The notes beneath the pieces were generated by a model. It did not search any database. It saw only the letters and a program-made list of their open reading frames with translations, and had not been told where the DNA came from. The translations under genes and the position numbers were made by a program. From Candidatus Saccharimonadota bacterium (lineage in GTDB: Bacteria > Patescibacteriota > Saccharimonadia > Saccharimonadales > UBA4665), in contig JAGORO010000008.1 of the NCBI GenBank assembly GCA_018062785.1, positions 1-38,913 on the forward strand: a DNA stretch of 38,913 nt. Reading direction: 5' to 3'. Positions 849 through 29,365 of the stretch are shown piece after piece (the stretch's first letter is position 1; every line of letters begins with the position of its first letter).

Positions 849-1688
849 ATGATTTCATTAAAAAAGATTCCTAGAGCCGGCATGGCGCTCGTTGGTGCTT
901 TTTTTATTATGCTTGGATGCGTTTCGATATCTTTCGCGCAGACCGTTTCCCAAGCGTATGGTATAACCGGTGATGTGAAAAAAGGCATGCTGGTAATGAT
1001 CGACCCCAAAAATAGCAAGAACGTGCTGCCACTCACTAACAGTAAAGACGCAGCTATGCAGGGTATTGCGGTGGAACCAAACGAGACAGCGGTATCATTG
1101 GGATTAGACACTAAAACCAACCAAGTGTATGTCGCAACAAATGGTAAACTCAATGTTCTCGTAAGTACACAAAACGGTCCAGTCAAAAAAGGCGATATAA
1201 TCAGTATTTCTGCGCTAGATGGTATTGGTATGAAGGCTGATTCTGGCCAGAACGTTATTCTTGGGAAGGCACTAACCAATTTTGATGGCAAACAGAACAG
1301 TATCGGCAAAACTCAGCTCAAGACCACTTCGGGTCCACGCACGGTGTCGATAGGCTATGCGAGCGTCGACATAGGCATCTCAAAGAACCCTCTGGCTGCC
1401 AGTGTCAGCGGACCACCGATGCCGGCCTTTTTGCGAAAATCGGGCGATGCCATTGCTGGAAAGCCAGTTAGCACTGTTCGTTTGTGGGTTAGCTTTGGCG
1501 TTTTGGTTTTGACGCTCTTTATGGCGGGTAACCTACTCTATGGAGGGGTGCATAATAGCCTGATTTCTATTGGTCGAAACCCGTTAGCCAAAAAATCAAT
1601 CTTGCGGGGCTTGATACAGGTAGTAGTACTCGGACTAATGGTTTTTGTTATCGGGCTGTTTGCAATATACTTATTACTAACGTTATAA
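849..1688 (+). CDS. Exported protein with C-terminal hairpin resembling ATP synthase subunit c, lacking the ion-binding carboxylate
   Basis: About 279 residues. Residues 1-31 form a signal peptide or N-terminal anchor ending near SFAQ. Residues 32-205 form a Gly/Val/Lys-rich, probably beta domain outside the membrane, with phrases such as VKKGDIISISALDG. The end is a two-helix hairpin: TM1 about 213-233, a polar loop IGRNPLAKKS about 241-250, and TM2 about 254-279. Loop and spacing resemble subunit c, whose loop is typically ARQPE followed by a second helix with Glu or Asp about 18 residues after the Pro. Here that position is Leu, and neither helix has an acidic residue. It is first in the F1-like cluster, 31 nt before the b-like gene. 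The c relationship is inferred; an unrelated membrane anchor is possible. Start 849 was chosen over 804 from promoter position. Confidence 0.6.
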   Translation: MISLKKIPRAGMALVGAFFIMLGCVSISFAQTVSQAYGITGDVKKGMLVMIDPKNSKNVLPLTNSKDAAMQGIAVEPNETAVSLGLDTKTNQVYVATNGKLNVLVSTQNGPVKKGDIISISALDGIGMKADSGQNVILGKALTNFDGKQNSIGKTQLKTTSGPRTVSIGYASVDIGISKNPLAASVSGPPMPAFLRKSGDAIAGKPVSTVRLWVSFGVLVLTLFMAGNLLYGGVHNSLISIGRNPLAKKSILRGLIQVVVLGLMVFVIGLFAIYLLLTL

Positions 1689-1719
1689 CGCTTAAGGTAA
1701 GGATGGTGGGACAACAACT

Positions 1720-2340
1720 ATGACAATCTGGTGGCCAGCACTAATTATCGGTAGTCTTCTGGCTGTGTTTATTGCTTTTGTATGGGTTGCTATCCGGCTC
1801 GGTAGCGTGCAGGCAGACAAGAAGAAAACGAGCGATGGAATTGAGCAAGCAGCTGAGGATGATGTCGAACATATCTTCAATGAAACATTCCGAGAAGAGC
1901 TCCGTAACAGGGGTCGACTGCACTTCGAAAAGATTATTTCCGAAAACGCCATGTTTTTGCAGCAAGACCTCCGGCTCACGACGAGCCAACTGAACGAATA
2001 CATGAAGGAGGAAATTACCAAAAACCTCCAGGACGAGTTTAAGAAGTACGAACAGTCTATTACTGATGCCAAGCAGATGGCGATTGACGCGCTCAAGAAG
2101 ACGAATGAGGTCATCGATGAACAGCGTGCTCACATATCAGAGGCACTGAGCGAAGAGGTGAAGCGAGAACGAGACAGGCTACTTATGCAATTCGAGAGTA
2201 ACATGGCCGATATCGTTAACCACTATGTTGTGGCAGCGATTGGCAACCAGATTGATCTCAGTGATCAGCTCGAGTATATTTTAAACGACCTGCACCTAAA
2301 TAAAGAGGCTATCCTCGAGGATATTAGACGTGGAGCCTAA
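1720..2340 (+). CDS. atpF: Subunit b-like peripheral stalk protein
   Basis: 206 residues. One N-terminal transmembrane helix (about 5-27, WWPALIIGSLLAVFIAFVWV) is followed by a long charged helical region (35-165) with coiled-coil character, and a C-terminal segment ending VNHYVVAAIGNQIDLSDQLEYI. This is the architecture of F-type subunit b, which anchors the stator to the membrane and to delta. Sequence similarity to classic b is weak, as usual in the family, so the call rests on architecture and position. Its stop lies inside the start of the delta-like gene (GTG at 2330), giving translational coupling. A GGTGGG site precedes the start. Confidence 0.75.
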   Translation: MTIWWPALIIGSLLAVFIAFVWVAIRLGSVQADKKKTSDGIEQAAEDDVEHIFNETFREELRNRGRLHFEKIISENAMFLQQDLRLTTSQLNEYMKEEITKNLQDEFKKYEQSITDAKQMAIDALKKTNEVIDEQRAHISEALSEEVKRERDRLLMQFESNMADIVNHYVVAAIGNQIDLSDQLEYILNDLHLNKEAILEDIRRGA

Positions 2341-2893
2341 CGATGCCGACGCTCAGTCTGTGCAAGTAGCTTCGGCATATCCGCAGCCTCAAGCTGCTCA
2401 ACCCTTACAGATGGCGCCAATACATTTGCCCGTGGGCGTAGTAAGTACGGGGGACGTCCGACGATTGCGCCGCGAAGTTTCCGAGATGGAAGACACAATT
2501 CAGGCCATACGCTTACGGACAAATGCGCCCGTTGCAAAATTACCCAGACTTAGCCGAGCGCTCGAAGAGCTTTCGAGTACCAATCGTCTCAACTTTCTTA
2601 TGCCAGAAGATCGAAAACACGCCGCTATCTTTCTCGATAACGTGCTTAGTAAGGCACCGGTCTTGCATATTAGTTTTGCCTCGGAGGCGAGTCGAAAATT
2701 CACAACTGAAATTGTGATGTGGCTGCGGGCGAACTTCGATAGTGAAATGCTAGTCGAGATTGGACTAGAGCCAAATATTGCTGCTGGGTGCATCGTACGG
2801 ACCACCAATCGATACTTTGATTTCTCGCTACAAAAGCATCTTGAGTCCAAGCGATCGATGCTTCTGGAACGCATTATGGAGACAAAGACATGA
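2330..2893 (+). CDS. atpH: F-type ATPase delta-like stator subunit
   Basis: 187 residues, GTG start overlapping the b-like stop by 11 nt. The first 45 residues are Pro/Gln/Ala-rich and probably disordered. A short coiled coil follows ([19 protein letters not shown]). The second half carries the most telling part: [18 protein letters not shown] then [20 protein letters not shown], which resembles the C-terminal domain of delta/OSCP-type proteins. The canonical N-terminal six-helix delta domain that caps alpha is not recognisable. The stop overlaps the alpha start (ATGA). Probably joins the b-like stalk to the F1 head. Confidence 0.75.
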
Positions 2894-4821
2894 GTTCAGG
2901 AAACCGTCATTTCGATGCACTTATCGAATCGGGAGCGCCGGTTGGTGAAGTCGTTGCCGTCGATAAGTTTTTGATCCAAGCGACTGGCCTACAGCCCTGC
3001 GCAGTCAACGCACTTGTAATGTTCGAAGATGGCAGTAAAGGGTTTGTGCACCAAGTTCACCCGGAGCATGTGATAATACTGCACCTCGGTACCGAAAACC
3101 TTCGCACCGGTATGGTAGCCGTACTACAGAACCAAGAACTGGTATGCAAAGTCGGCAAAGATTTCATCGGACGTGTTGTCTCGGTAACGGGGGAGCCGCT
3201 AGATGGTAAGGGCCCGATTGCCGCAGATGACATTTGGCCAGTTTTCAACACCGCTCCGTCGATCTATGAACGAAGGCTAGTCATGGATCAAGTCGAAAGT
3301 GGTGTGGTGGCCATTGATGCACTATTTCCTCTGGTGAGAGGGCAGCGTATGGCGCTGCTTGGCGACAGTAAATCAGGTAAGAGTACTGTCGTGACGCAGC
3401 TCGCCATTAACCAAAAAAACACCGATCAGGTGCTTGTCTACTGTCTTATTGCAAAACGTCGCGACGATATTGATATGCTTTTGAGCCGACTAACCGAAAA
3501 TGGTGGTCTCGAAAAGGCGATCGTGGTGGTGAGTACAATGTTCGAATCGCTCATCATGAGTTACATTGCGCCGTATGTGGCTTGTTCTATGGCGGAGTAC
3601 CTATGGCAAAAATGCGATCAAGATACGATTATCGTATACGATGACCTTACGAGCCATGCCCATGCGTACCGAGAGGTTGCACTACTGTCTGGTGTTAGCC
3701 CTGGGCGCGATAGCTATCCAGGCGACATGTTTTATGCGCACTCCAGCCTTCTTGAGCGTGCGGGTAGGCTAGAGAGCACAGGAAGGTCACTTACGAGCAT
3801 ACCTGTAGTACACGCTGCCAATGGCGACATCACGGCGTATCTTCCGACCAACATTATGTCCATTACCGACGGCCAGTGGATCTTGGACATGGAGATCTTT
3901 CGTAACGGTATCCGACCTGCCATCAACATAGGTCTTAGCGTGACTCGTGCCGGGGGCGTTGGTCATAACAAGCGCCAAAAAGATCTTGCCGCCCAGACCC
4001 TAAAAATTCTCGCCGACTACCGGCAAGCAGAAGAATTCTCTCACTTTGGTTCGGAGCTTGGCCCAGAGGCAAAACATGCTCTGGAGACTGGCAAACGAAT
4101 CTTTCAGATTTTAACGCAAAGCCCGAACGAAACGTTCTCGCTTACGTCCCAGCAGCTAATGCTTGACTTGGTACTCAACCTCAAAGATGGCCAGTCATTA
4201 GACATCCCAGCTCTCAAGCTACACGTTAACGACTTTGCGAGCAAAATAACTAAAGACGAAGAGTACGATCACATACGTTCATTACTAGAGAACGAAGTAG
4301 TTACCGGCACGGCTGCTGGTGACGAAAAGAGCGCCGAGAAGCCGGAGGTCTATGTAGATAAAGCCAAGCCAATCGAGGGCGATGGCAAGGCAATTGCTGC
4401 ACCTACCTCCGAAGCATCAGGAACGGAAGCAGAAGCAGCGTCTTCCGAGGATGCTACCCAGCAACCAACGGATGAATCTAATGAAGTGGCCGAGAACGCT
4501 GAGGCGGTGTCAGGGCAGCAAATAGCCACCGTACCAGATGTTGCAGATGAGGGCGAGCAACCTTTGGATAGCGAGCAGCCCAAACCAGAGGTAGAAACGG
4601 AAGGCCAAGACAAAAACGAATCGCCCGAGTCAGATGTTGCTCTAGCCGAGAGTGTTGTCCTAGCCGAAGAGCAAGTAGTCAACGAGGCACAAGAAGACAA
4701 TGCTGAAGAAAAGGTCACTCAAATGCTCGAACCTGACTCAAACTATGCGCAGCGAGAAAAAATGGCCAAGGAACACGTTGCTGCAGGTCAGGAGTCGGAG
4801 CAAAAGGACGGTGATTCGTGA
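2890..4821 (+). CDS. atpA: F1-type ATPase alpha subunit with long acidic C-terminal tail
   Basis: 643 residues against about 500-515 for normal alpha. The nucleotide domain has a P-loop GDSKSGKST at 158-166 (GDRQTGKT in typical alpha), a Walker B-like strand TIIVYDDLT around 246-254, and SVTRAGG with the arginine finger at R353 that completes the beta catalytic site. The normal fold ends near residue 470. Beyond it are about 170 residues rich in Glu, Ala, Ser and Gln with almost no hydrophobic core, predicted disordered and acidic. ATGA overlap with the upstream gene and GTGA overlap with gamma imply strict coupling. The P-loop differs but remains a plausible nucleotide binder. Confidence 0.95.
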
Positions 4822-7307: not shown

Positions 7308-7637
7308 ATTGGACATTGGATGTTAGAAAATCTCATCCGCTCCCAATGTTTTACGTCCATGCCAGCACTACCTTGGTTGGCGTATTTTATCAAGGGGAGG
7401 GCTCGCCCTCCCCGTTTGTAATCGAACTTAGTTCGATTACTGCACTCCCCGCCCCTAAAGCACGGCAGCGGAGCTGCCTGTGTCATCTTTGGCTCCAATG
7501 TAACGTAGGGGATGAAGGTATTCCTCTCCCGAATAGCTTTTCCTTCCGAAAAGCTATTCGCTCGGTTAGCGTCTCGTAAGGTGGAATGGAAGTTTTTCTG
7601 ATGTCTAACGTCTAGCTTCGAACATCCAATGTCCAAT
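7308..7637. repeat. Palindrome-rich repeat element A with 17-bp terminal inverted repeats
   Basis: Fills the gap between two convergent genes, starting 3 nt after one stop and ending 3 nt before the other. The ends are perfect inverted repeats: ATTGGACATTGGATGTT at 7308-7324 and its complement at 7621-7637. Inside are palindromes: GGGGAGGGCTCGCCCTCCCC at 7394-7413, a hairpin with arms GTAATCGAA/TTCGATTAC near 7417-7440, GGCAGC/GCTGCC near 7463-7478, and GAATAGCTTTT/AAAAGCTATTC near 7531-7561. The core 7389-7577 recurs inverted at 15797-15985. No transposase is encoded. MITE-like non-autonomous element is the best description; it could also fold as a transcription barrier. Confidence 0.8.
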
Positions 7638-7639
7638 AC

Positions 7640-8611
7640 CTACTCAACCGTAAAGTAGTCGAAGCCGAAGCTGGCAAGACTTGGAGGAGCCTTTGCGGCA
7701 CATACACTGAAGCTAGTTGTCGAGCGGTTGACGTACATGCCAATATCCCCTGCTGCGGCCCCAACAGGTGTAACGATAACGCGAGGGGTATTGTTATAAC
7801 GTTGCGCAAAGTTAACGGTCACAAAACAGCCGGCCGAGGCCCCGTTGCCGGTATTTACATTGATACTTCCGGCGATATCAGAACCGCTTACAGCCACAGT
7901 ACCACCACTTCCCAGCGCTGGACCATTTGTGCGAGCAGGGTTTGCACCGCCTGCAGCGAGGTGGCGCGTCAGATTGAGGTTACCATTGAGTTGTAGGTTG
8001 TTTGTAGTGATTGCGGGAGCAGAAACCGGGCCGTTGAACGTACCGCCTCCGCCCGAAGTTATGCCTTTTTGCGCCGACAATTGCCCTTGCGTGGCAATGT
8101 TGCCGATAACTGAAAGGTCTTTGTTGACCGAAATCGCCTCAAACACACTGTTGCCCGAAACGGTGATACCAGGGACATTAAGCGCACCGCCAACCTGAAT
8201 AGGACCAGCCACTTCGAGGCGGTCTCGTATAAGAACGCGGCCAGCAAATACGGCATTGCTTTGAACGCTCAGGACTTGCTTTGGTTGACCCACGCTAACA
8301 TCGTTGTTTGCGAGATCTTTGAGTGTTTCGGTACTAAGGCTTTGCGTGTCGACCTTGGCAGCATCTTGGCGTTTGCTCGCTAGGTATGTCACAGCGATAA
8401 CCACGCCTGCAAGCAGTAACAACAAGAGAAACAGTAGTAAGTAGATGTTTATCCTGTGAGTTATCTTTTCGACAAACGATCCGCTCTTTGCCGACGTGAC
8501 ATCTGTCTTGGCGGCATCGGTAGGCGAAGATTGGGAAGCCTCGAGTGAGCTAGTTGCCTCCGACGACTCTAGGCTATTTGATTCGAGTGAATTTGATTCG
8601 TTTTTGTCCAT
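7640..8611 (-). CDS. Membrane-anchored surface protein with beta-repeat stalk
   Basis: 323 residues, not assigned to a named family. A Ser/Glu-rich cytoplasmic N-terminus includes a direct repeat ESNSLESNSLESS. A single hydrophobic helix follows (about 55-77, INIYLLLFLLLLLLAGVVIA), then an external region. Residues 115-235 show short periodic strands (FAGRVLIRDRLEVAG, IQVGGALNVPGITVSG, FEAISVNKDLSVIGN) suggesting a beta-solenoid. The last 85 residues form a separate domain with two cysteines (ASAGCFVTV, FSVCAAKAPP) and a terminal FGFDYFTVE. This looks like a stalk with a C-terminal head displayed outside. No Shine-Dalgarno site is evident. It runs divergently from the other surface genes. Confidence 0.75.
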   Translation of the reverse strand: MDKNESNSLESNSLESSEATSSLEASQSSPTDAAKTDVTSAKSGSFVEKITHRINIYLLLFLLLLLLAGVVIAVTYLASKRQDAAKVDTQSLSTETLKDLANNDVSVGQPKQVLSVQSNAVFAGRVLIRDRLEVAGPIQVGGALNVPGITVSGNSVFEAISVNKDLSVIGNIATQGQLSAQKGITSGGGGTFNGPVSAPAITTNNLQLNGNLNLTRHLAAGGANPARTNGPALGSGGTVAVSGSDIAGSINVNTGNGASAGCFVTVNFAQRYNNTPRVIVTPVGAAAGDIGMYVNRSTTSFSVCAAKAPPSLASFGFDYFTVE

Positions 8612-8762: not shown

Positions 8763-9509
8763 ATGAAAAAGAGACACATTTTAGTAATGGTACTAGCGCT
8801 TATTTGTATCGGTAGTGCGCAGAGCGTTGCAACTGCCCAGCAGTCATCGTCAAGCAATTTTCGGGTAAATGAGGTCTTTTTTGGGTCGGGTGGTGAGTTA
8901 AAAGCTTGTTCGGGCTCGTACTGTTCAAAACAATCGGCCGGTGAGCTTACGGTGGGTAATACGAGCAGCAGTAATTATCAGGCTCAAGCAGGGTTCAACA
9001 CGAATCGCGAGCCATGGATTGGTATGCAGGTGCTAACCCCAGCTACCTCCGCAAATGATGTACTTTCTTTTAGTCAAGCCCGGTACGCGACGGCTCAATT
9101 TAGAGTCAGTGCGTACCTTGGTAGCGGATATGTCGTTCAGACATGGGGAAATGGTGGTATGAAAAACGGGAGTCGCTTGCTGGCGAATCTTACGACGCCA
9201 TCTGCATCATCACCCGGAACGGAACAGTTCGGTATCAATCTAGTCGCCAATACCAGCCCAACTACTCTGGGTGGAAATCCCACGCAATCGCCCGACTACG
9301 TTTCGCAACCATTCGGATTCGGTCAAGCAGCTTCGGGCTACAGCACACCAAATATGTACAAATATGTCGATGGCGACACTATAGCGCGTTCTACCAAGAG
9401 TACGACGTATACCGACTACACCATCTCGTACCTGTTTAATATCACGCCAATCACCCCTGGGGGCACGTATACAATGAACCAGTCCCTCGTCGCAACCGCA
9501 ACATTCTAG
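8763..9509 (+). CDS. Secreted beta-rich surface protein
   Basis: 248 residues with a clear Sec signal peptide (MKKRHILVMVLALICIGSAQ, cleavage probably after ATA-Q near residue 25). An N-terminal FRVNEVFFGSGGE segment with two cysteines (KACSGSYCSK) leads to a C-terminal domain shared with the protein at 12391: QFGINLVANTSP, PNMYKYVDGDTIARS, and a final strand ITPGGTYTMNQSLVATATF. The last residue is Phe, as in the three following surface proteins. No membrane helix or sortase motif is present, so retention would need a partner, perhaps the anchored proteins at 13542 or 14570. Function unknown; adhesion to a host cell is only a guess. Confidence 0.8.
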   Translation: MKKRHILVMVLALICIGSAQSVATAQQSSSSNFRVNEVFFGSGGELKACSGSYCSKQSAGELTVGNTSSSNYQAQAGFNTNREPWIGMQVLTPATSANDVLSFSQARYATAQFRVSAYLGSGYVVQTWGNGGMKNGSRLLANLTTPSASSPGTEQFGINLVANTSPTTLGGNPTQSPDYVSQPFGFGQAASGYSTPNMYKYVDGDTIARSTKSTTYTDYTISYLFNITPITPGGTYTMNQSLVATATF

Positions 9510-9611
9510 GCTGGTGCGGGGGTGTAGTAAAAAGTAGTCCAATATCTAGCGCGGCTCCCCCATAATGCGTTGAATAATTTGCAACGATAATTTGATTTTA
9601 TATAAAAAAGC

Positions 9612-9700
9612 TTGCATAGTAATTTTTTATTTGCTACCATAAGCGCATACGGACTGACCGTAATACAAACATCATTTAAAAACAAAGGAGATTTTCTGAA
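9612..9700 (+). promoter_or_regulatory. Promoter and leader of the 9701 surface gene
   Basis: A -35 TTGCAT at 9612-9617, a 17-nt spacer, and an extended -10 TGCTACCAT ending at 9640. The predicted leader of about 54 nt ends in AAAGGAG at 9685-9691. The string TGCTACCATAA recurs in the promoter at 13503. Confidence 0.7.
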
Positions 9701-10930
9701 ATGAAAACACACCTTGAGCTTCTGCGCCGCGGAAGTGCTGCCTTGGCAGCGCTCGCTCTTGTGGTGGGTGCGACCGTACCTACACTCGTAGCTCCGTTGG
9801 CTTCTGCAAGCCAGCTGGTTGACAGAAGTATGCAGCTGTCAGATTCAGGTGCGAGCGGTGGCTCTATCACTACAGGCGTAGGAAGCGGAACCAACGTTTC
9901 CTATAAATTAACGTTTACCACGCTAGCCGCGATGCAGTCTATGGTCGTAGACTTCTGCGACAACACGCCGCTTATTGGCGATGCTACATGTACGGCCCCA
10001 GCGGGGATGACAAATGCGAGTGCAGCCCTAACGGCGAACGGGGCGTGGTCACTCGGCACGCCAGACAATGTGTATCAGTGGCGATTAACAAACACTGGTT
10101 CGCAGGCAGCCGGAACGTTTACATTCGAGGTTACGGGCATGGTTAATCCAAACACCCAAAACCACTCATATTACGCCCGTATCACAACCTATAGTGACGC
10201 AACCTACGGTAGCTCTGGTACAGCCTACTCAAGCCCCGGTAGCGTTGGTAGCAAAGTCGATGATGGTGGCATTGCTCTATCGACAGCAACGCCCATTACC
10301 GTAACAGCTCGCGTCATGGAAACATTGTCGCTCTGCACGTCAGCGGCTGCAATGGCTGCAGCTAACTCTTGCGGTTCAGCTACACCCCCTTCGGTTGTTT
10401 TGGGACACACTGCGAATAATATTTTGACTTCTGACCAAACAGACACTGCCAGCGTATTCACCCAACTTTCGACCAATGCAGCCAATGGCTACGCCCTCTA
10501 CTTGCGCGCAAGCAACCTAGCTTGCCCCAACGGTGCATCAGCCGGCGGTGGCCTTAGTAAAGACGGTGGTTCAAACTGCCATATCCCAGCTATTAACGGC
10601 GGGTCTGCAACGCCTTCTACTTTCCCAGCTGCAACTGCAGGTTTTGGTGCACGAGTCAGTAACGGTACGGCCGCAACAAGTGGCACAGGCAGCAACACGG
10701 CAGTAAGTCGCTGGAACCCAGCAGCTGATAACTACCTCATGGACACAGTGACCTCAAACGACAATGTGGTTTCTAATTACGGCAGCAAAATTGCCTTTAC
10801 AGACACTGGCGATGCAAAGCAAGCTAACAGTGTTAACAACACGCTTACGTTTGCCGCCCAAGCTTCACCGGTTACACCAGCCGGTATCTACACCGAGAAC
10901 TTTAGCCTAATAGGTGTGGGAACATTCTAA
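9701..10930 (+). CDS. Secreted beta-rich surface protein, paralog of 11107
   Basis: 409 residues. Signal peptide 1-36 (basic start, then ALAALALVVGATVPTLVAPL, ending ASAS). The N-terminal domain (about 37-180) contains the signature MQLSDSGASGGSITTG and cysteines in VVDFCDNTPLIGDATCTAP; a middle low-complexity region is rich in Gly, Ser and Thr. The C-terminal domain has further Cys pairs (SLCTS/NSCGS, NLACPNG/SNCHIPA) and ends SPVTPAGIYTENFSLIGVGTF minus its first residue. No anchor is encoded. It is closely related to the next gene, including a 143-bp identical DNA tract. The strong promoter, leader and Rho-independent terminator suggest an abundant single-gene transcript. Likely a major surface protein; function unknown. 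Confidence 0.85.
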   Translation: MKTHLELLRRGSAALAALALVVGATVPTLVAPLASASQLVDRSMQLSDSGASGGSITTGVGSGTNVSYKLTFTTLAAMQSMVVDFCDNTPLIGDATCTAPAGMTNASAALTANGAWSLGTPDNVYQWRLTNTGSQAAGTFTFEVTGMVNPNTQNHSYYARITTYSDATYGSSGTAYSSPGSVGSKVDDGGIALSTATPITVTARVMETLSLCTSAAAMAAANSCGSATPPSVVLGHTANNILTSDQTDTASVFTQLSTNAANGYALYLRASNLACPNGASAGGGLSKDGGSNCHIPAINGGSATPSTFPAATAGFGARVSNGTAATSGTGSNTAVSRWNPAADNYLMDTVTSNDNVVSNYGSKIAFTDTGDAKQANSVNNTLTFAAQASPVTPAGIYTENFSLIGVGTF

Positions 10931-11011
10931 GCCCTCTCGGCAGACATATATGCGAGTAGTTTGCCAAAGAAGCTAGAAAATCCTTACGGAACATAGTTTT
11001 CCACAGCCTTC

Positions 11012-11043
11012 AACAAGCCCCCTAAACAGGGGCTTGTTTTTTT
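11012..11043 (+). terminator. Rho-independent terminator after the 9701 gene
   Basis: A 10-bp perfect stem AACAAGCCCC/GGGGCTTGTT with a 7-nt loop (CTAAACA), followed by a run of T. It separates two paralogous surface genes into independent transcripts. Confidence 0.92.
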
Positions 11044-11054
11044 AACCACGAGCG

Positions 11055-11106
11055 TGATATAGTGCAGGAGTTACTAACCTAAACAAAAACAATTTAAGGA
11101 GAAAAG
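11055..11106 (+). promoter_or_regulatory. Promoter and ribosome site of the 11107 surface gene
   Basis: Extended -10 TGATATAGT at 11055-11063, a short A-rich leader and AAGGAG just before the ATG. It sits directly behind the terminator, so this gene is transcribed on its own or with the 12391 gene. Confidence 0.65.
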
Positions 11107-12354
11107 ATGAGTATTACTCGCAACTCATTGGCCCGACCAGCGGCAGTGTTATGCGCGCTTGCGCTGTTGGTTGGTGTCGCATCCCCTGCGTTTTTGTCGC
11201 CCCTAACGACATACGCAGCCCAATTACAAAACCGCCAAATACAGATGTCCGATTCGGGCGCTAGCGGTGGCTCTATCACTACCGGCGTCGGCAGCGGTAC
11301 GGCCGTCAAGTACAAACTAACATTTACGAGCACGAATGCTATGCAGTCGATGGTTGTAGACTTCTGCGACAACACACCGCTTATTGGTGATGCGACCTGT
11401 ACGGCACCAACTGGCTTTACAACATCTGGCGCAACGCTGACAGTCAATGGCTCATGGTCGCTTTCGACTCCAAGTGCTACACAGTGGAAGCTATCAAACA
11501 CCAGTTCTCAGGCAGCCGGAACTTTCGAATTTGAAGTAAATGGTATCACCAACCCAAGCACGCAGAACCACTCGTTCTACGCTCGTGTTACGACCTACTC
11601 AGACGCAACCTACGGTAGCTCTGGTACAGCCTACTCAAGCCCCGGTAGCGTTGGTAGCAAAGTCGATGATGGTGGCATTGCTCTATCGACAGCAACGCCC
11701 ATTACCGTAACAGCTCGCGTCATGGAAACATTGTCGCTCTGCACCTCTGGTGGCGATGCGGCAAATGCCACAAACTTAGCAGCCGCTAACTCTTGCGCTT
11801 CGGCTACACCGCCCTCAATCATCCTTGGGCACACTGCCAATAATGTGTTAACAGCAGACGCAATTGACACCAAAAATGTCTTTACTCAACTTTCGACCAA
11901 TGCAGCCAATGGCTACGCCCTCTACCTGCGTGCGGGCAACCTAGCTTGCCCCAACGGCTCATCAGCCGGCGGTGGCCTCAGTAAAGACGGTGGTTCAAAC
12001 TGTCATATCCCAGCTATTAACGGTGGGTCTGCTTCGGGTGGAGCCATGACAGCCGGTACGGCAGCCTTCGGTGCACAGGTACTTTCCGGCACGGCTGCAA
12101 CCAGCGGCACAGGCTCCAATACTGCAGTTACTCGTTGGGCTCAAACTGGCAGTAACTACATCATGGACACAGTGACCTCAAACGACAATGTGGTTTCTAC
12201 CTACGGCAGCAAGATTGCCTTCACCGACACCGCAGATTCGAAGCAGGCCAACAGCGTCAACAACACACTTAAGTTTGCAGCAACTGCTTCACCAGTTACT
12301 CCAGCAGGTATCTACACAGAAAACTTCAGCCTCATCGGCGTAGGTACATTCTAA
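11107..12354 (+). CDS. Secreted beta-rich surface protein, paralog of 9701
   Basis: 415 residues, collinear with the 9701 protein: signal peptide to about residue 38, signature IQMSDSGASGGSITTG, cysteines in VVDFCDNTPLIGDATCTAP, a central stretch rich in Ser/Gly/Thr, and the same ending PAGIYTENFSLIGVGTF. Differences cluster in the mature N-terminus and in two short loops (extra GGDAANATNL, and GGSASGGAMTAGT). Bases 11602-11744 are identical to 10196-10338, while flanking coding sequence has diverged. The two genes probably give interchangeable or alternately expressed surface subunits. 36 nt separate it from the next gene without a terminator. Confidence 0.85.
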   Translation: MSITRNSLARPAAVLCALALLVGVASPAFLSPLTTYAAQLQNRQIQMSDSGASGGSITTGVGSGTAVKYKLTFTSTNAMQSMVVDFCDNTPLIGDATCTAPTGFTTSGATLTVNGSWSLSTPSATQWKLSNTSSQAAGTFEFEVNGITNPSTQNHSFYARVTTYSDATYGSSGTAYSSPGSVGSKVDDGGIALSTATPITVTARVMETLSLCTSGGDAANATNLAAANSCASATPPSIILGHTANNVLTADAIDTKNVFTQLSTNAANGYALYLRAGNLACPNGSSAGGGLSKDGGSNCHIPAINGGSASGGAMTAGTAAFGAQVLSGTAATSGTGSNTAVTRWAQTGSNYIMDTVTSNDNVVSTYGSKIAFTDTADSKQANSVNNTLKFAATASPVTPAGIYTENFSLIGVGTF

Positions 12355-12390
12355 GAAGCGTTAGAACCAAAGAAAGGTTAGATCCTGAAA

Positions 12391-13446
12391 ATGCGAAGGC
12401 AGCGAGTACGAAACATAACCTTCGCAAGCCTTACGGCCCTTCTGCTGATTGCAGCAGTTGGGCCGTTTGCTGTTTGGCGCACTGAGGCAGCGGAGCTGGC
12501 GACGCGCCAACTCACCATGAGCTCTAACATTACTAGCGCCACGGCACAGTACGAACTTTCGTTTTCTGGACAGTCAACAGGCACAGTCGGGTCGGTTCGG
12601 TTGCAGTTATGTGCGAATGATCCATTCTATGGAACGCCTTGTGTCGCCCCAGCTGGACTCGACCTTAGCGCCGCTTCGCTTACAGGTCAGACAGGAATGA
12701 CAGGCTTCAGTATCGATCCTAGCTCTAGCGCAAACGAACTTGTGCTTACGCGAACGCCGGCAGCATCAATAGCTGGGCTAGCCACATACACATTGCAAGG
12801 AGTGAAGAACGCTAGCAGTCAAGGGACGGTATTTGGGCGTATAGAAACATTTGCGAGTACCGATGCGACCGGTCCACGCACTGATGCGGCTGGGCTTGCG
12901 ATAGCGTATCTCGATTCGGCGATCGGTGTGCAGTCTACCGTGCCGCCGTACTTACTTTTTTGCATCGGCAACACAGTTCAGGCATATGATTGCAGCACCG
13001 CAAACGGTAACTTTACGGACTTTGGCGATTTTTCTATAACATCAACGGCGACTGGGCAAACTCAAATGATTGTGGCCACGAATGCCGAATTTGGCTATAC
13101 GATCCGTGCCATGGGTACAACATTGACCTCTGGTACCAATGTGATTCCTGCGCTTGCCACGCCAGATATTGCACGTAAAGGCGTGAGCCAGTTCGGAATG
13201 AATCTCCGAGCTAATGGGGTGCCTCCAGTCGGGCACGATGTCATGGGTGGAGGTTCGGGCGTGATCCGTCCTGCCTACAATGCTCCAAATTACTTCGCAT
13301 TTATCCCCGGTGATACCCTCGTTCAATCGCCGACCCCAGAATACAAGCGTCTCTTTACCGTAACGTATATGGCAAATATCTCAAAAAACCAGCCACCTGG
13401 TGCGTACGTCAGCACGCTAACGTACGTTGCATTAGCCTCATTCTAG
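12391..13446 (+). CDS. Secreted surface protein, two-domain hybrid
   Basis: 351 residues. Signal peptide about 1-34 (TFASLTALLLIAAVGPFAVW, ending TEA-A). The N-terminal domain resembles that of the 9701/11107 proteins: ATRQLTMSSNITSATAQYEL, then LQLCANDPFYGTPCVAPAG in place of VVDFCDNTPLIGDATCTAP. The C-terminal domain instead matches the 8763 protein: SQFGMNLRANGVPP, PNYFAFIPGDTLVQS, and a terminal PPGAYVSTLTYVALASF. Cysteines also occur in LLFCIGNTVQAYDCS. Probably co-transcribed with 11107; its ribosome site (AAAGG) is weak. Perhaps a minor or tip component of a surface layer; function unknown. Confidence 0.8.
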   Translation: MRRQRVRNITFASLTALLLIAAVGPFAVWRTEAAELATRQLTMSSNITSATAQYELSFSGQSTGTVGSVRLQLCANDPFYGTPCVAPAGLDLSAASLTGQTGMTGFSIDPSSSANELVLTRTPAASIAGLATYTLQGVKNASSQGTVFGRIETFASTDATGPRTDAAGLAIAYLDSAIGVQSTVPPYLLFCIGNTVQAYDCSTANGNFTDFGDFSITSTATGQTQMIVATNAEFGYTIRAMGTTLTSGTNVIPALATPDIARKGVSQFGMNLRANGVPPVGHDVMGGGSGVIRPAYNAPNYFAFIPGDTLVQSPTPEYKRLFTVTYMANISKNQPPGAYVSTLTYVALASF

Positions 13447-13502
13447 AAGAGTATAGATGCATTAGTTACAACACTATTATGCTATTGCTTTGCTCTATTA
13501 TC

Positions 13503-13541
13503 TGCTACCATAAAGAGTAAGATTTAAAAGAGGGGAAACTC
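13503..13541 (+). promoter_or_regulatory. Promoter of the DUF916-like gene
   Basis: Extended -10 TGCTACCAT ending at 13511, identical with the following AA to the one at 9632-9642. GAGGGG precedes the GTG start by about 7 nt. A -35 box is not obvious. Confidence 0.6.
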
Positions 13542-14549
13542 GTGCAAAAAACTATCATAAAGCGTTCATTGTCACTTATTGCGGCCGTATTACTTCTGGT
13601 TAGTGTTGGTGGGGTAGGCTCTGCACAGCAAACAACAGCCGGCAATTACGGCAACGGCATTCGGGTATCGCCCGTACGAACAGATCTTGTTATGAACCCA
13701 GGCGAAACACGCCAGATTAGTGTCACTATCTCCAACTTGACCTCCGCTAGCTCCGATTACCAAGCGTATGTGAACGATTTCATCGCTGCAGATGGCGAGC
13801 TTGGGCAGCCAGCCCTGATTCTCGATAACGACAAGTATGCTCCAAGCCATAGCCTCAAGCGGTACATGCAAAATGTACCAAATGTTACTGTCGGCGCTGG
13901 GCAGTCAAAGGATGTCAAGGTCACGATCAGTATCCCACGAGATGCGGCTGCAGGTGGGTACTACGGTGCAGTGCGATTTGCCCCAGCCAAGGGTGGTGAT
14001 GACTCAAAAAACGTTACTCTCGCAGCAAGTGTCGGTTCGCTCATCCTTGTTAAGGTCCCTGGTGATATTAAGGAAAACGTAACCCTCGAAACATTCGACG
14101 TTCGTAAAGGGACAGGCAACAAGAACGGTAGCAGCTTCTTTACCACAAACAAAGACCTCTACGCTGTCACAAGATTCAATAACTCGGGCAATGTTCACGA
14201 ACAGCCATTCGGTAAGTTACAGCTTAAAAAGGGCGGCAAGGTCATCGAAACTCTCGAGATCAACAATACTGATCCACGTGGGAATGTACTTCCCGATAGC
14301 GTACGTCGCTTTGAGAGCAAGCTGACAAAAGTTGGTTTTTGGGGCAAGTACGAAGTAGAGGGTAACTTTGGGTACGGTACTAATGGTCAGCTCCTCCAAG
14401 CAAAATCAACGTTTTACGTCTTCCCGCTCGTACTCATTCTTATTGGCTTAGGCTTACTCATCCTTGTACTCTTCTTGCTCTTTGGCCTTCCAAAAGCAAT
14501 CAAGAACTACAATCGAAATGTAGTCCGAAAAGCCAACAGGCGTAGGTAG
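13542..14549 (+). CDS. DUF916-like (WxL-interacting type) anchored surface protein
   Basis: 335 residues from a GTG. Signal peptide 1-28 (SLSLIAAVLLLVSVGGVGSA). Next comes an Ig-like domain typical of DUF916: GIRVSPVRTDLVMNPGETRQ, then ISVTISNLTS and a second strand-rich domain with AAGGYYGAVRFAP. A C-terminal membrane helix (about 292-315, FPLVLILIGLGLLILVLFLL) is followed by a basic tail NYNRNVVRKANRRR. In Firmicutes, DUF916 proteins pair with secreted WxL proteins and tether them to peptidoglycan or membrane. Here it follows three secreted proteins whose C-termini form a comparable beta domain, so a tethering role is reasonable. The family call is from motif memory, not a search. Confidence 0.7.
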   Translation: MQKTIIKRSLSLIAAVLLLVSVGGVGSAQQTTAGNYGNGIRVSPVRTDLVMNPGETRQISVTISNLTSASSDYQAYVNDFIAADGELGQPALILDNDKYAPSHSLKRYMQNVPNVTVGAGQSKDVKVTISIPRDAAAGGYYGAVRFAPAKGGDDSKNVTLAASVGSLILVKVPGDIKENVTLETFDVRKGTGNKNGSSFFTTNKDLYAVTRFNNSGNVHEQPFGKLQLKKGGKVIETLEINNTDPRGNVLPDSVRRFESKLTKVGFWGKYEVEGNFGYGTNGQLLQAKSTFYVFPLVLILIGLGLLILVLFLLFGLPKAIKNYNRNVVRKANRRR

Positions 14550-14569
14550 CCTACAGAGGAAGCATCACA

Positions 14570-15511
14570 ATGACGGCATATCGTAAATGTACAGGCATAG
14601 TAGCAGCATTTGCGATGTTGAGTCTTGCGTTACTGTCGCCTTCATCGGCACTAGCGCAATCCACAAATCCAGAGCAGGGCGGTACTACTGGGCTTCAGGG
14701 CACCATACCGAGTGCGCCTCCGAAGACCGCTGCCACTATTGCCGTGCCCGGTAGCGGCCAAACATTCACGTCCATTCCAGTTACAGTTAGCGGCTTATGC
14801 TCCGGTGATGTTGTCGTGAAGGTATTTAGTAACAATATATTTGTAGGATCAGCACAGTGCCAAAACGGTAGCTACCGGCTACAGATAGATCTGTTTGGTG
14901 GCCAAAACTCACTCGTGGCACGGGTGTACGATGCATTGGACCAAGCAGGGCCCGACAGCAATACGGTACTCGCGACATTCCAAGACGGACAGTTCGCTGC
15001 TTTTGGCCAGCGAGTAAGCCTAACCAGTACACTTGCCAAAAATGGTGCGCTTGTCGGCAAGCAGCTCAGCTGGCCTATCGTACTAAGTGGCGGGAGTGGA
15101 CCGTATGCTCTAAGTATTGACTGGGGTGATGGTACTTCGACAGACCTCAAGAGCATCTCTTTTGCCGGTCCGCTTAATCTTACTCATGCCTACAAGAAAG
15201 CTGGTATATTCCGTGTCACCGTTAAGGCAACAGATGCAACAGGAGCGGCGGCATTCTTGCAGCTTGTTGGGGTTGGTATGGGTAGCGTATCCCAAGTTAG
15301 CGATGGGCAGTCTACTTCTGTCGCCGGTGGTGGCAAGAATGCCGGTCAGGGCGGGGGAGAGGTCCAGCGTATCTATATTTGGTGGCCAGTGCTGCTCCTA
15401 GTTCCGTTCATATTTGCAACATTTTGGATTGGCCGACGCTACGAACTCCTAGCCTTGCACCGCAAGATCGAGCGCGAAGCCAAACTGTACGAAAATGAAA
15501 TCCAACGCTAG
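14570..15511 (+). CDS. Anchored surface protein with Ig-like and PKD domains
   Basis: 313 residues, 20 nt behind the previous gene with GAGGAAG, so same operon. Signal peptide about 1-30 (AFAMLSLALLSPSSALAQ). Residues 45-130 look like an Ig-like fold (GSGQTFTSIPVTVSGLCSGD). Residues 150-235 form a PKD domain with the hallmark SIDWGDGTSTD and later LTHAYKKAGIFRVTVKATD. A membrane helix (about 268-288, WWPVLLLVPFIFATFWIG) is followed by a charged cytoplasmic helix. PKD domains usually mediate protein or carbohydrate contacts outside the cell. With the DUF916-like protein it probably forms the membrane-bound base of the surface assembly. Confidence 0.8.
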   Translation: MTAYRKCTGIVAAFAMLSLALLSPSSALAQSTNPEQGGTTGLQGTIPSAPPKTAATIAVPGSGQTFTSIPVTVSGLCSGDVVVKVFSNNIFVGSAQCQNGSYRLQIDLFGGQNSLVARVYDALDQAGPDSNTVLATFQDGQFAAFGQRVSLTSTLAKNGALVGKQLSWPIVLSGGSGPYALSIDWGDGTSTDLKSISFAGPLNLTHAYKKAGIFRVTVKATDATGAAAFLQLVGVGMGSVSQVSDGQSTSVAGGGKNAGQGGGEVQRIYIWWPVLLLVPFIFATFWIGRRYELLALHRKIEREAKLYENEIQR

Positions 15512-15512
15512 T

Positions 15513-15985
15513 TAGACGTTGAAAGGTAGAAGTTAGAATTCAGAAAATCTCACTCATATCAACGTTTCATCCCCATTTACACACTTTACCCCTAGTAGTT
15601 CAATCCCATTCTCCAGTAGACCCGAAGGGCCTACCTCCTTACTTTTGGCTTAGCTTGGGAAGTAAGCAAAAGACCAAGGCTAGACTTCCATCTCTTGGGA
15701 TGCTATGTGCAGCGAAGCCGCACGTATGTATACCTGCGAGCTTCGCTCGCTAGCAACAACATATGTCCCCAATCCCAGATAACCATCGTAGGCTTCACGA
15801 GACGCTAACCGAGCGAATAGCTTTTCGGAAGGAAAAGCTATTCGGGAGAGGAATACCTTCATCCCCTACGTTACATTGGAGCCAAAGGCAACACAGGCAG
15901 CTCCGCTGCCGTGCTTTAGGGGCGGGGAGTGCAGTAATCGAGCTAAGTTCGATTACAAACGGGGAGGGCGAGCCCTCCCCTTGAT
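15513..15985. repeat. Palindrome-rich repeat element B, inverted copy of A
   Basis: This 520-base gap holds no gene. Bases 15797-15985 are the reverse complement of 7389-7577 with only about four mismatches in 189. The left end (15513-15547) carries a degenerate version of the family boundary, TTAGACGTTG then AGAAAATCT. Between boundary and core are further short palindromes such as GCGAGCTTCGCTCGC near 15737-15751. Together with element A it brackets all seven surface genes. The frame of mnmA runs open into it, but the mnmA promoter lies to the right, so that extension is not coding. Confidence 0.8.
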
Positions 15986-29050: not shown

Positions 29051-29365
29051 AGGCTGGAGGGGCGTGCCCCTCCAAGACTGTAGTAAGATTACACGAGAAT
29101 TTTGGAGCCGAAGGCGACACAGACAGCTCCGCTGCCGTGCTTTAGGGGTGGGGAGTGTAGGAATGGGATGGGGTTTTCTAGCTTCCAACGTCTAAGAGGG
29201 GGCGAGCCCTCCCCTTGATGAAATCACAAGCCCTCCAGAACCATAGTGTGATTATATGGGATGAGGATGAAGTGCTAGGGGTAAAGACTAGGAATGAGGA
29301 CGAATCTCAGAATATTGATACTGGCTTAAATAAGATTTTCTAACGTCCAATGTCCAACGTCTAAT
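29051..29365. repeat. Degenerate palindromic repeat element D
   Basis: The 380-base gap 29003-29382 holds no gene. A hairpin GGAGGGGCGTGCCCCTCC sits at 29056-29073. Bases about 29102-29160 resemble element B on the same strand (AGCTCCGCTGCCGTGCTTTA is shared), then the GTAATCG hairpin of A/B is missing and is replaced by TTTTCTAGCTTCCAACG. The segment CGAGCCCTCCCCTTGATG near 29203-29220 resumes the similarity. The right end (29334-29365) is the family boundary in reverse: AGATTTTCTAACGTCCAATG, then TCCAACGTCTAATGG. A mosaic, decayed copy. Confidence 0.7.

Follow-up and report, generated by a model that had tools for sequence, protein, structure and literature searches.

An operon for secreted and membrane proteins in a Saccharibacteria-type genome

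The window (the whole stretch of DNA that was analysed, 38,913 nucleotides) comes from an 862-kb CPR genome of the Saccharibacteria type, which agrees with the CPR host proposed in the initial annotation. All six open reading frames (ORFs) stand where that annotation had placed them, on the + strand from 8763 to 15511. We name each protein by the first position of its gene.

7640..8611, - strand: divergent membrane protein with an extracellular beta-helix-like region
8763..9509, + strand: PamT-type subunit (248 aa), above the cut-offs of NF058579 and NF058581
9701..10930, + strand: Pam pilin-like subunit (409 aa) with two beta domains, ending in AGIYTENFSLIGVGTF
11107..12354, + strand: Pam pilin-like subunit (415 aa), a tandem copy of 9701
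12391..13446, + strand: Pam pilin (351 aa), matching NF058581, with an AF2 model
13542..14549, + strand: WxLIP-type membrane protein, with matches to PF06030 and the EfmWxLIP1 profile, an AF2 model, and a fold search
14570..15511, + strand: PamR (313 aa), matching NF058578 and PKD PF00801

From 8763 to 14570, the intergenic gaps are 191, 176, 36, 95, and 20 bases. Given these sizes, at least the part from 12391 to 15511 looks like a single transcription unit. Between the tandem duplicates 9701 and 11107, there is a hairpin that resembles a terminator (11012-11038), but terminator-like matches across the region are no more common than in shuffled sequences, so we give this one little weight. 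The operon is flanked by an F1F0 ATP synthase operon on one side and by alaS on the other, with an ORF for an mnmA-like thiouridylase (read from the ORF's sequence) directly downstream. The same kinds of Pam genes are grouped together in two more Saccharibacteria loci (L052 and L053), which also have mnmA-like and alaS-like neighbours.

The divergent gene at 7640-8611 encodes a single-pass protein with a counterpart (62% identity) in the same place in L052 (928-1947). It is conserved to the same degree as the WxLIP-type protein, and it is possibly a further part of the system. Inverted copies of a 189-bp repeat of nested hairpins, 98% identical to each other, bracket the divergent gene and the Pam operon at 7389-7577 (+) and 15797-15985 (-). 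Contig C13 carries a third, identical copy (39604-39792), and a partial one (77% identity) lies at 29102-29219. The repeat was not found in L052 or L053. It could be a mobile element or a means of inverting the 8.2-kb segment.

The subunits and the Pam pilus families

Four signal-peptide proteins with a similar C-terminal strand (G-x-Y and a final Phe) and no anchor were reported initially, and the description holds. 8763, 9701, 11107, and 12391 each have one N-terminal hydrophobic (signal) segment and no second one, and their sequences and hydropathy reveal no LPxTG motif, no C-terminal transmembrane (TM) helix, and no anchor of another kind.

Among the family models of NCBIfam release 20.0, 8763 matches PamT (NF058579; 280 bits, with a cut-off of 240), and both 8763 and 12391 match the Pam pilin C-terminal domain (NF058581; 139 and 152 bits, with a cut-off of 55). 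The C-terminal attachment domain had been proposed as new, but it is already represented by this model. The tandem duplicates 9701 and 11107, which are 78% identical, fall below the cut-off of NF058581 (23.6 and 21 bits). However, a CPR-wide profile of the C-domain, which was grown from the window proteins over the CPR loci and has 44 members, takes in all four subunits (E = 1e-25 to 1e-40; 9e-28 for 9701). Members of this family have a common final strand, with G-x-Y, then alternating hydrophobics, and then an aromatic end; for instance, 8763 ends in GGTYTMNQSLVATATF and 12391 in PGAYVSTLTYVALASF. G-x-Y is found near the end of 38 of 40 family members but in just 3 of 103 other ORFs from the same loci. 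The matches to NF058581, the profile family, and the shared final strand show that this domain is real and conserved, and that it had been catalogued before.

Three of the subunits have an N-terminal beta-domain, which 8763 lacks. In 12391, an N-terminal beta-sandwich (39-173) precedes the C-terminal pilin domain (205-351). The N-domain in the AF2 model resembles SpaD, a sortase-pilin domain with a common fold (Z = 9.4), so by its predicted structure it is a pilin/adhesin-like beta-sandwich. The model is not confident for the C-domain (pLDDT about 50), and fold searches with it are uninformative on that domain. The depth available to AF2 was limited because the single-protein contig scan gave three loci only and the viral contigs that we searched gave no relatives. 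We also compared 38 C-domains to PDB and Pfam and counted nothing as a match; one of the 38 had a marginal similarity (E = 0.03) to the spore coat U domain, which we did not count.

The last gene of the operon, 14570, was initially described as encoding an Ig/PKD membrane protein. We find a signal segment, an Ig-like and a PKD domain (PF00801), a C-terminal TM helix, and a cytoplasmic tail, and the protein matches PamR (NF058578; 372 bits, with a cut-off of 300).

PamT, the Pam pilin C-domain, and PamR all pass their curated cut-offs within a single operon, and by family membership the locus and its C-domain are of the already known CPR Pam pilus kind. It differs from the family models in two ways: 9701 and 11107 score under the cut-off of the domain model, and no model of NCBIfam gives a name to the DUF916-type protein 13542. 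The "pilus" label is NCBIfam's. Our literature search found no paper on Pam pili and none that joins WxL or DUF916 with CPR bacteria, but most subscription papers and all of bioRxiv were outside it, so this carries little weight.

A WxLIP relative and its pairing with the pilin domain

The identification of 13542 as a DUF916-like membrane protein is confirmed by PF06030 (WxLIP_PGBD), which it matches at 37.9 bits (cut-off 27.3). The protein has a signal peptide, a DUF916/PGBD-like Ig domain (39-173), a second Ig domain (180-293), a TM helix at about 296-323, and a basic tail. Hydropathy places the hydrophobic segments at 4-30 and 284-323, and the AF2 model has the helix at 296-334. PF06030 is matched by 12 of 21 CPR relatives of 13542, and a profile of the 21 relatives matches both Ig domains of EfmWxLIP1, for which crystal structures exist (9i25, 9i1y), with E = 5e-6. 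The profile searches suggested in the initial annotation were for DUF916 and DUF3324, and only DUF916 was found: the second domain of 13542 has no match to DUF3324 in Pfam. Nonetheless, the EfmWxLIP1 profile and the fold alignments span both domains.

The AF2 model of 13542 (pLDDT 73) shows two beta domains and the TM helix. A loop at 84-100 is modelled with low confidence; in CPR proteins, it carries a conserved E-x-G-x-P-x-hydrophobic pattern. The closest solved structure is 9i25_C, a WxLIP bound to a long WxL protein (Foldseek E = 1.7e-11; Z = 14.5 over 226 residues), and the best match that is not a WxLIP has Z = 11.9. The model also resembles both domains of the fimbrial chaperones CfaA, Caf1M, FimC, and YadV (Z = 9-10). 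Because middling Z scores are common among Ig folds, we view the likeness to chaperones as a lead, not as proof. From the profiles and the predicted fold, we conclude that 13542 is genuinely related to the WxL-interacting protein (WxLIP), which likewise has two domains. This link between the Pam locus and WxLIP is well supported, and we did not find it described in our limited literature search.

The initial annotation had recommended a search for the C-domain across Saccharibacteria. We surveyed 97 genomes of Patescibacteria, of which 26 have the pilin domain and 40 encode a DUF916-type protein related to 13542. The DUF916-type protein is found in 23 of the 26 genomes with the pilin domain and in 17 of the 71 others (Fisher p = 1e-8, uncorrected for kinship), so the domain mostly occurs with such a partner. 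Within the class, PF06030 is found in 21 of 27 pilin genomes and in 3 of 34 others (p = 3e-8, also uncorrected for kinship). In all 23 close pairs, the two genes are on the same strand with the pilin gene upstream. In four of the 26 genomes with the pilin domain, no DUF916-type gene lies within 5 kb of a pilin match: three lack any match, and in the fourth the gene is on a different contig. Some of these genomes are incomplete drafts. Conversely, a C-domain gene lies directly 5' of the DUF916-type gene at 22 of the 28 DUF916-type loci that we inspected; another locus (L010) stops at a contig edge with a fragment of a C-domain. A partner relation between the pilin C-domain genes and the DUF916-type protein is thus well supported by the gene content and order of these genomes. 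The initial annotation had named two results as refuting it, a fold unlike DUF916 and a C-domain found apart from such partners, and its proposal withstands this test.

Some DUF916-type loci have other arrangements. The window genome contains a second pair (L002, G000:C12), in which a gene for a small secreted protein (756-1376) precedes a DUF916-type gene (1471-3132) whose product has a TM helix and then a LysM-like segment. The small protein ends in SGSYTLPMNITFIAQ and is not a clear member of the C-domain family by profile. Proteins that end in dockerin-like repeats (D-x-N-x-D-G) are encoded directly downstream of CPR DUF916-type genes in L015 (2438-3718), L027 (2374-3378), and L030 (2090-2968), and they are perhaps another class of partner. 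In L021 (226-2472) and L022 (1477-3855), the upstream protein has a DUF916-like start and no pilin gene precedes the DUF916-type gene, so tandem WxLIP-type pairs occur in some CPR bacteria.

Proposed strand donation, alternatives, and related systems

The reading that we favour, with a probability of roughly 0.6, is that this operon encodes a Pam pilus, or a short fibre, of a saccharibacterium, and that the WxLIP-type partner lends a strand to the pilin C-domain. The four subunits would leave the cell through Sec. Three carry an N-terminal adhesin/pilin-like beta domain, while the N-terminus of the PamT-type subunit differs, and the C-terminal domain of each would be an incomplete beta-sandwich. 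13542, tethered by its TM helix, would complete this sandwich by contributing a strand from the flexible loop around residues 84-100. This step would parallel the strand that WxLIP is predicted to lend to WxL and the one that PapD-type chaperones lend to fimbrial subunits. The completed subunit would then join a growing fibre or stay at the cell surface, and the membrane-anchored PamR would probably aid in anchoring or presenting the fibre. A likely use of the fibre would be contact with a host bacterium.

PapD-type chaperones complete fimbrial subunits by lending a strand. In published modelling of Firmicutes WxLIP, a DUF916 hairpin that is unordered alone is predicted to insert a strand and complete the beta-sandwich of WxL (PMC10599100). 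Loop 84-100 of 13542 is unordered at what seems to be the matching place, which by analogy suggests that 13542 completes the pilin C-domain. Because the text of that paper gives no residue numbers, we infer the donor loop from this apparent correspondence.

In the initial annotation, the locus was viewed as a counterpart of WxL surface display. In its static form, this would mean that there is no polymer and that the subunits are held at the surface by their C-domains, bound to 13542. Much of the proposal stands: 13542 is a true relative of WxLIP, the genes are coupled, their order is that of WxL loci, and the subunits have no other anchor. Also, we know of no precedent for polymers in WxL-type systems. 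But the C-domain lacks WxL motifs and does not match PF13731, NCBIfam classes the subunits as pilins, and a heteropolymer is a better fit to four paralogous subunits per partner. We consider display without a fibre rather unlikely. A fibre seems favoured by the Pam naming, by the four paralogous subunits, and by their two-domain build.

Another view is that the DUF916-type protein and PamR are structural or glycan-binding proteins that are co-expressed with the pilins and do not bind the C-domain. Ig-like folds are common, many unrelated Ig proteins match at Z = 9-12, and some DUF916-type genes have no detectable adjoining pilin gene (L015, L021, L022, L032, and L034 are examples). Against this, the pilin and DUF916-type genes co-occur in a fixed arrangement, and the best fold match, which is clear of the rest, is a WxLIP in complex with WxL; we judge the absence of binding to be improbable. 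Still more doubtful, and in our estimation very improbable, is that the subunits are linked by a sortase encoded elsewhere. The genome does contain two sortase genes, and the N-domain is similar to domains of sortase-assembled pilins, SpaD among them (as above), but both sortase genes are on other contigs, and none of the subunits has an LPxTG-type sorting signal or a C-terminal TM helix. It is mainly the absence of sorting signals that leads us to rate sortase assembly so low.

CPR bacteria spend their lives attached to other microbes. In the papers on attachment by Saccharibacteria that we consulted, type IV pili are the main subject (PMC12206443, PMC10633639). The Pam pilus would be a second fibre system, unrelated to type IV pili and spread across the phylum, and as such a candidate for contact with the host. 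The shared partner protein suggests a common way of building or holding the Pam pilus and the WxL surface proteins. If the partner works as WxLIP does, then one mechanism would serve both, and structures of one system would inform the other.

The resemblance to WxL/WxLIP extends to several features. In both systems, the WxLIP-type protein has two Ig domains, a C-terminal TM helix, and an unordered hairpin; the C-terminal-domain gene is directly upstream of the WxLIP-type gene; and the domain itself is at the extreme C-terminus. (On Firmicutes plasmids, WxL precedes WxLIP in most of the clusters that we read, and in one cluster WxLIP is first.) The final strand of the Pam C-domain, G-x-Y-x-x-T-L-T-Y, resembles Y-x-x-T-L-T-W of WxL. 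The systems differ in that the Pam C-domain has no Trp-x-Leu motifs and 13542 has no match to DUF3324. W-x-L is absent from 8763 and 12391, and where it occurs in 9701 and 11107, it is in the N-domain. PF13731 (WxL) has no match in the window genome or among the 38 C-domains. When we aligned the pilin C-domain and the WxL domain with hhalign, the match was not significant, although the alignment spanned the full length of both families and kept lG, GY/GW, and the final Y-x-x-T-L-T-Y/W in register. The probability was 1.3%, which is at about the 99th percentile of block shuffles (p of about 0.01), so this sequence comparison is only suggestive of homology. The pilin C-domain probably works like a WxL partner.

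As in the chaperone-usher systems (PapD/FimC/Caf1M), a partner with two Ig domains, similar in fold to fimbrial chaperones (Z = 9-10), accompanies subunits with a conserved C-terminal strand, and strand complementation is possible. Neither the window proteins nor the 38 C-domains match chaperone or fimbrial families in Pfam above the cut-offs. Unlike those chaperones, 13542 is membrane-anchored, and no usher or outer membrane is expected. We tentatively suggest, as a possibility that we rate at somewhat less than even, that CPR Pam pilins and Firmicutes WxL proteins represent two branches of a single system, in which a PapD-like protein with two Ig domains, tethered to the membrane, donates a strand that completes a C-terminal beta-sandwich. 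If this is true, then bacteria with a single membrane possess a counterpart of chaperone-assembled fibres that needs no usher.
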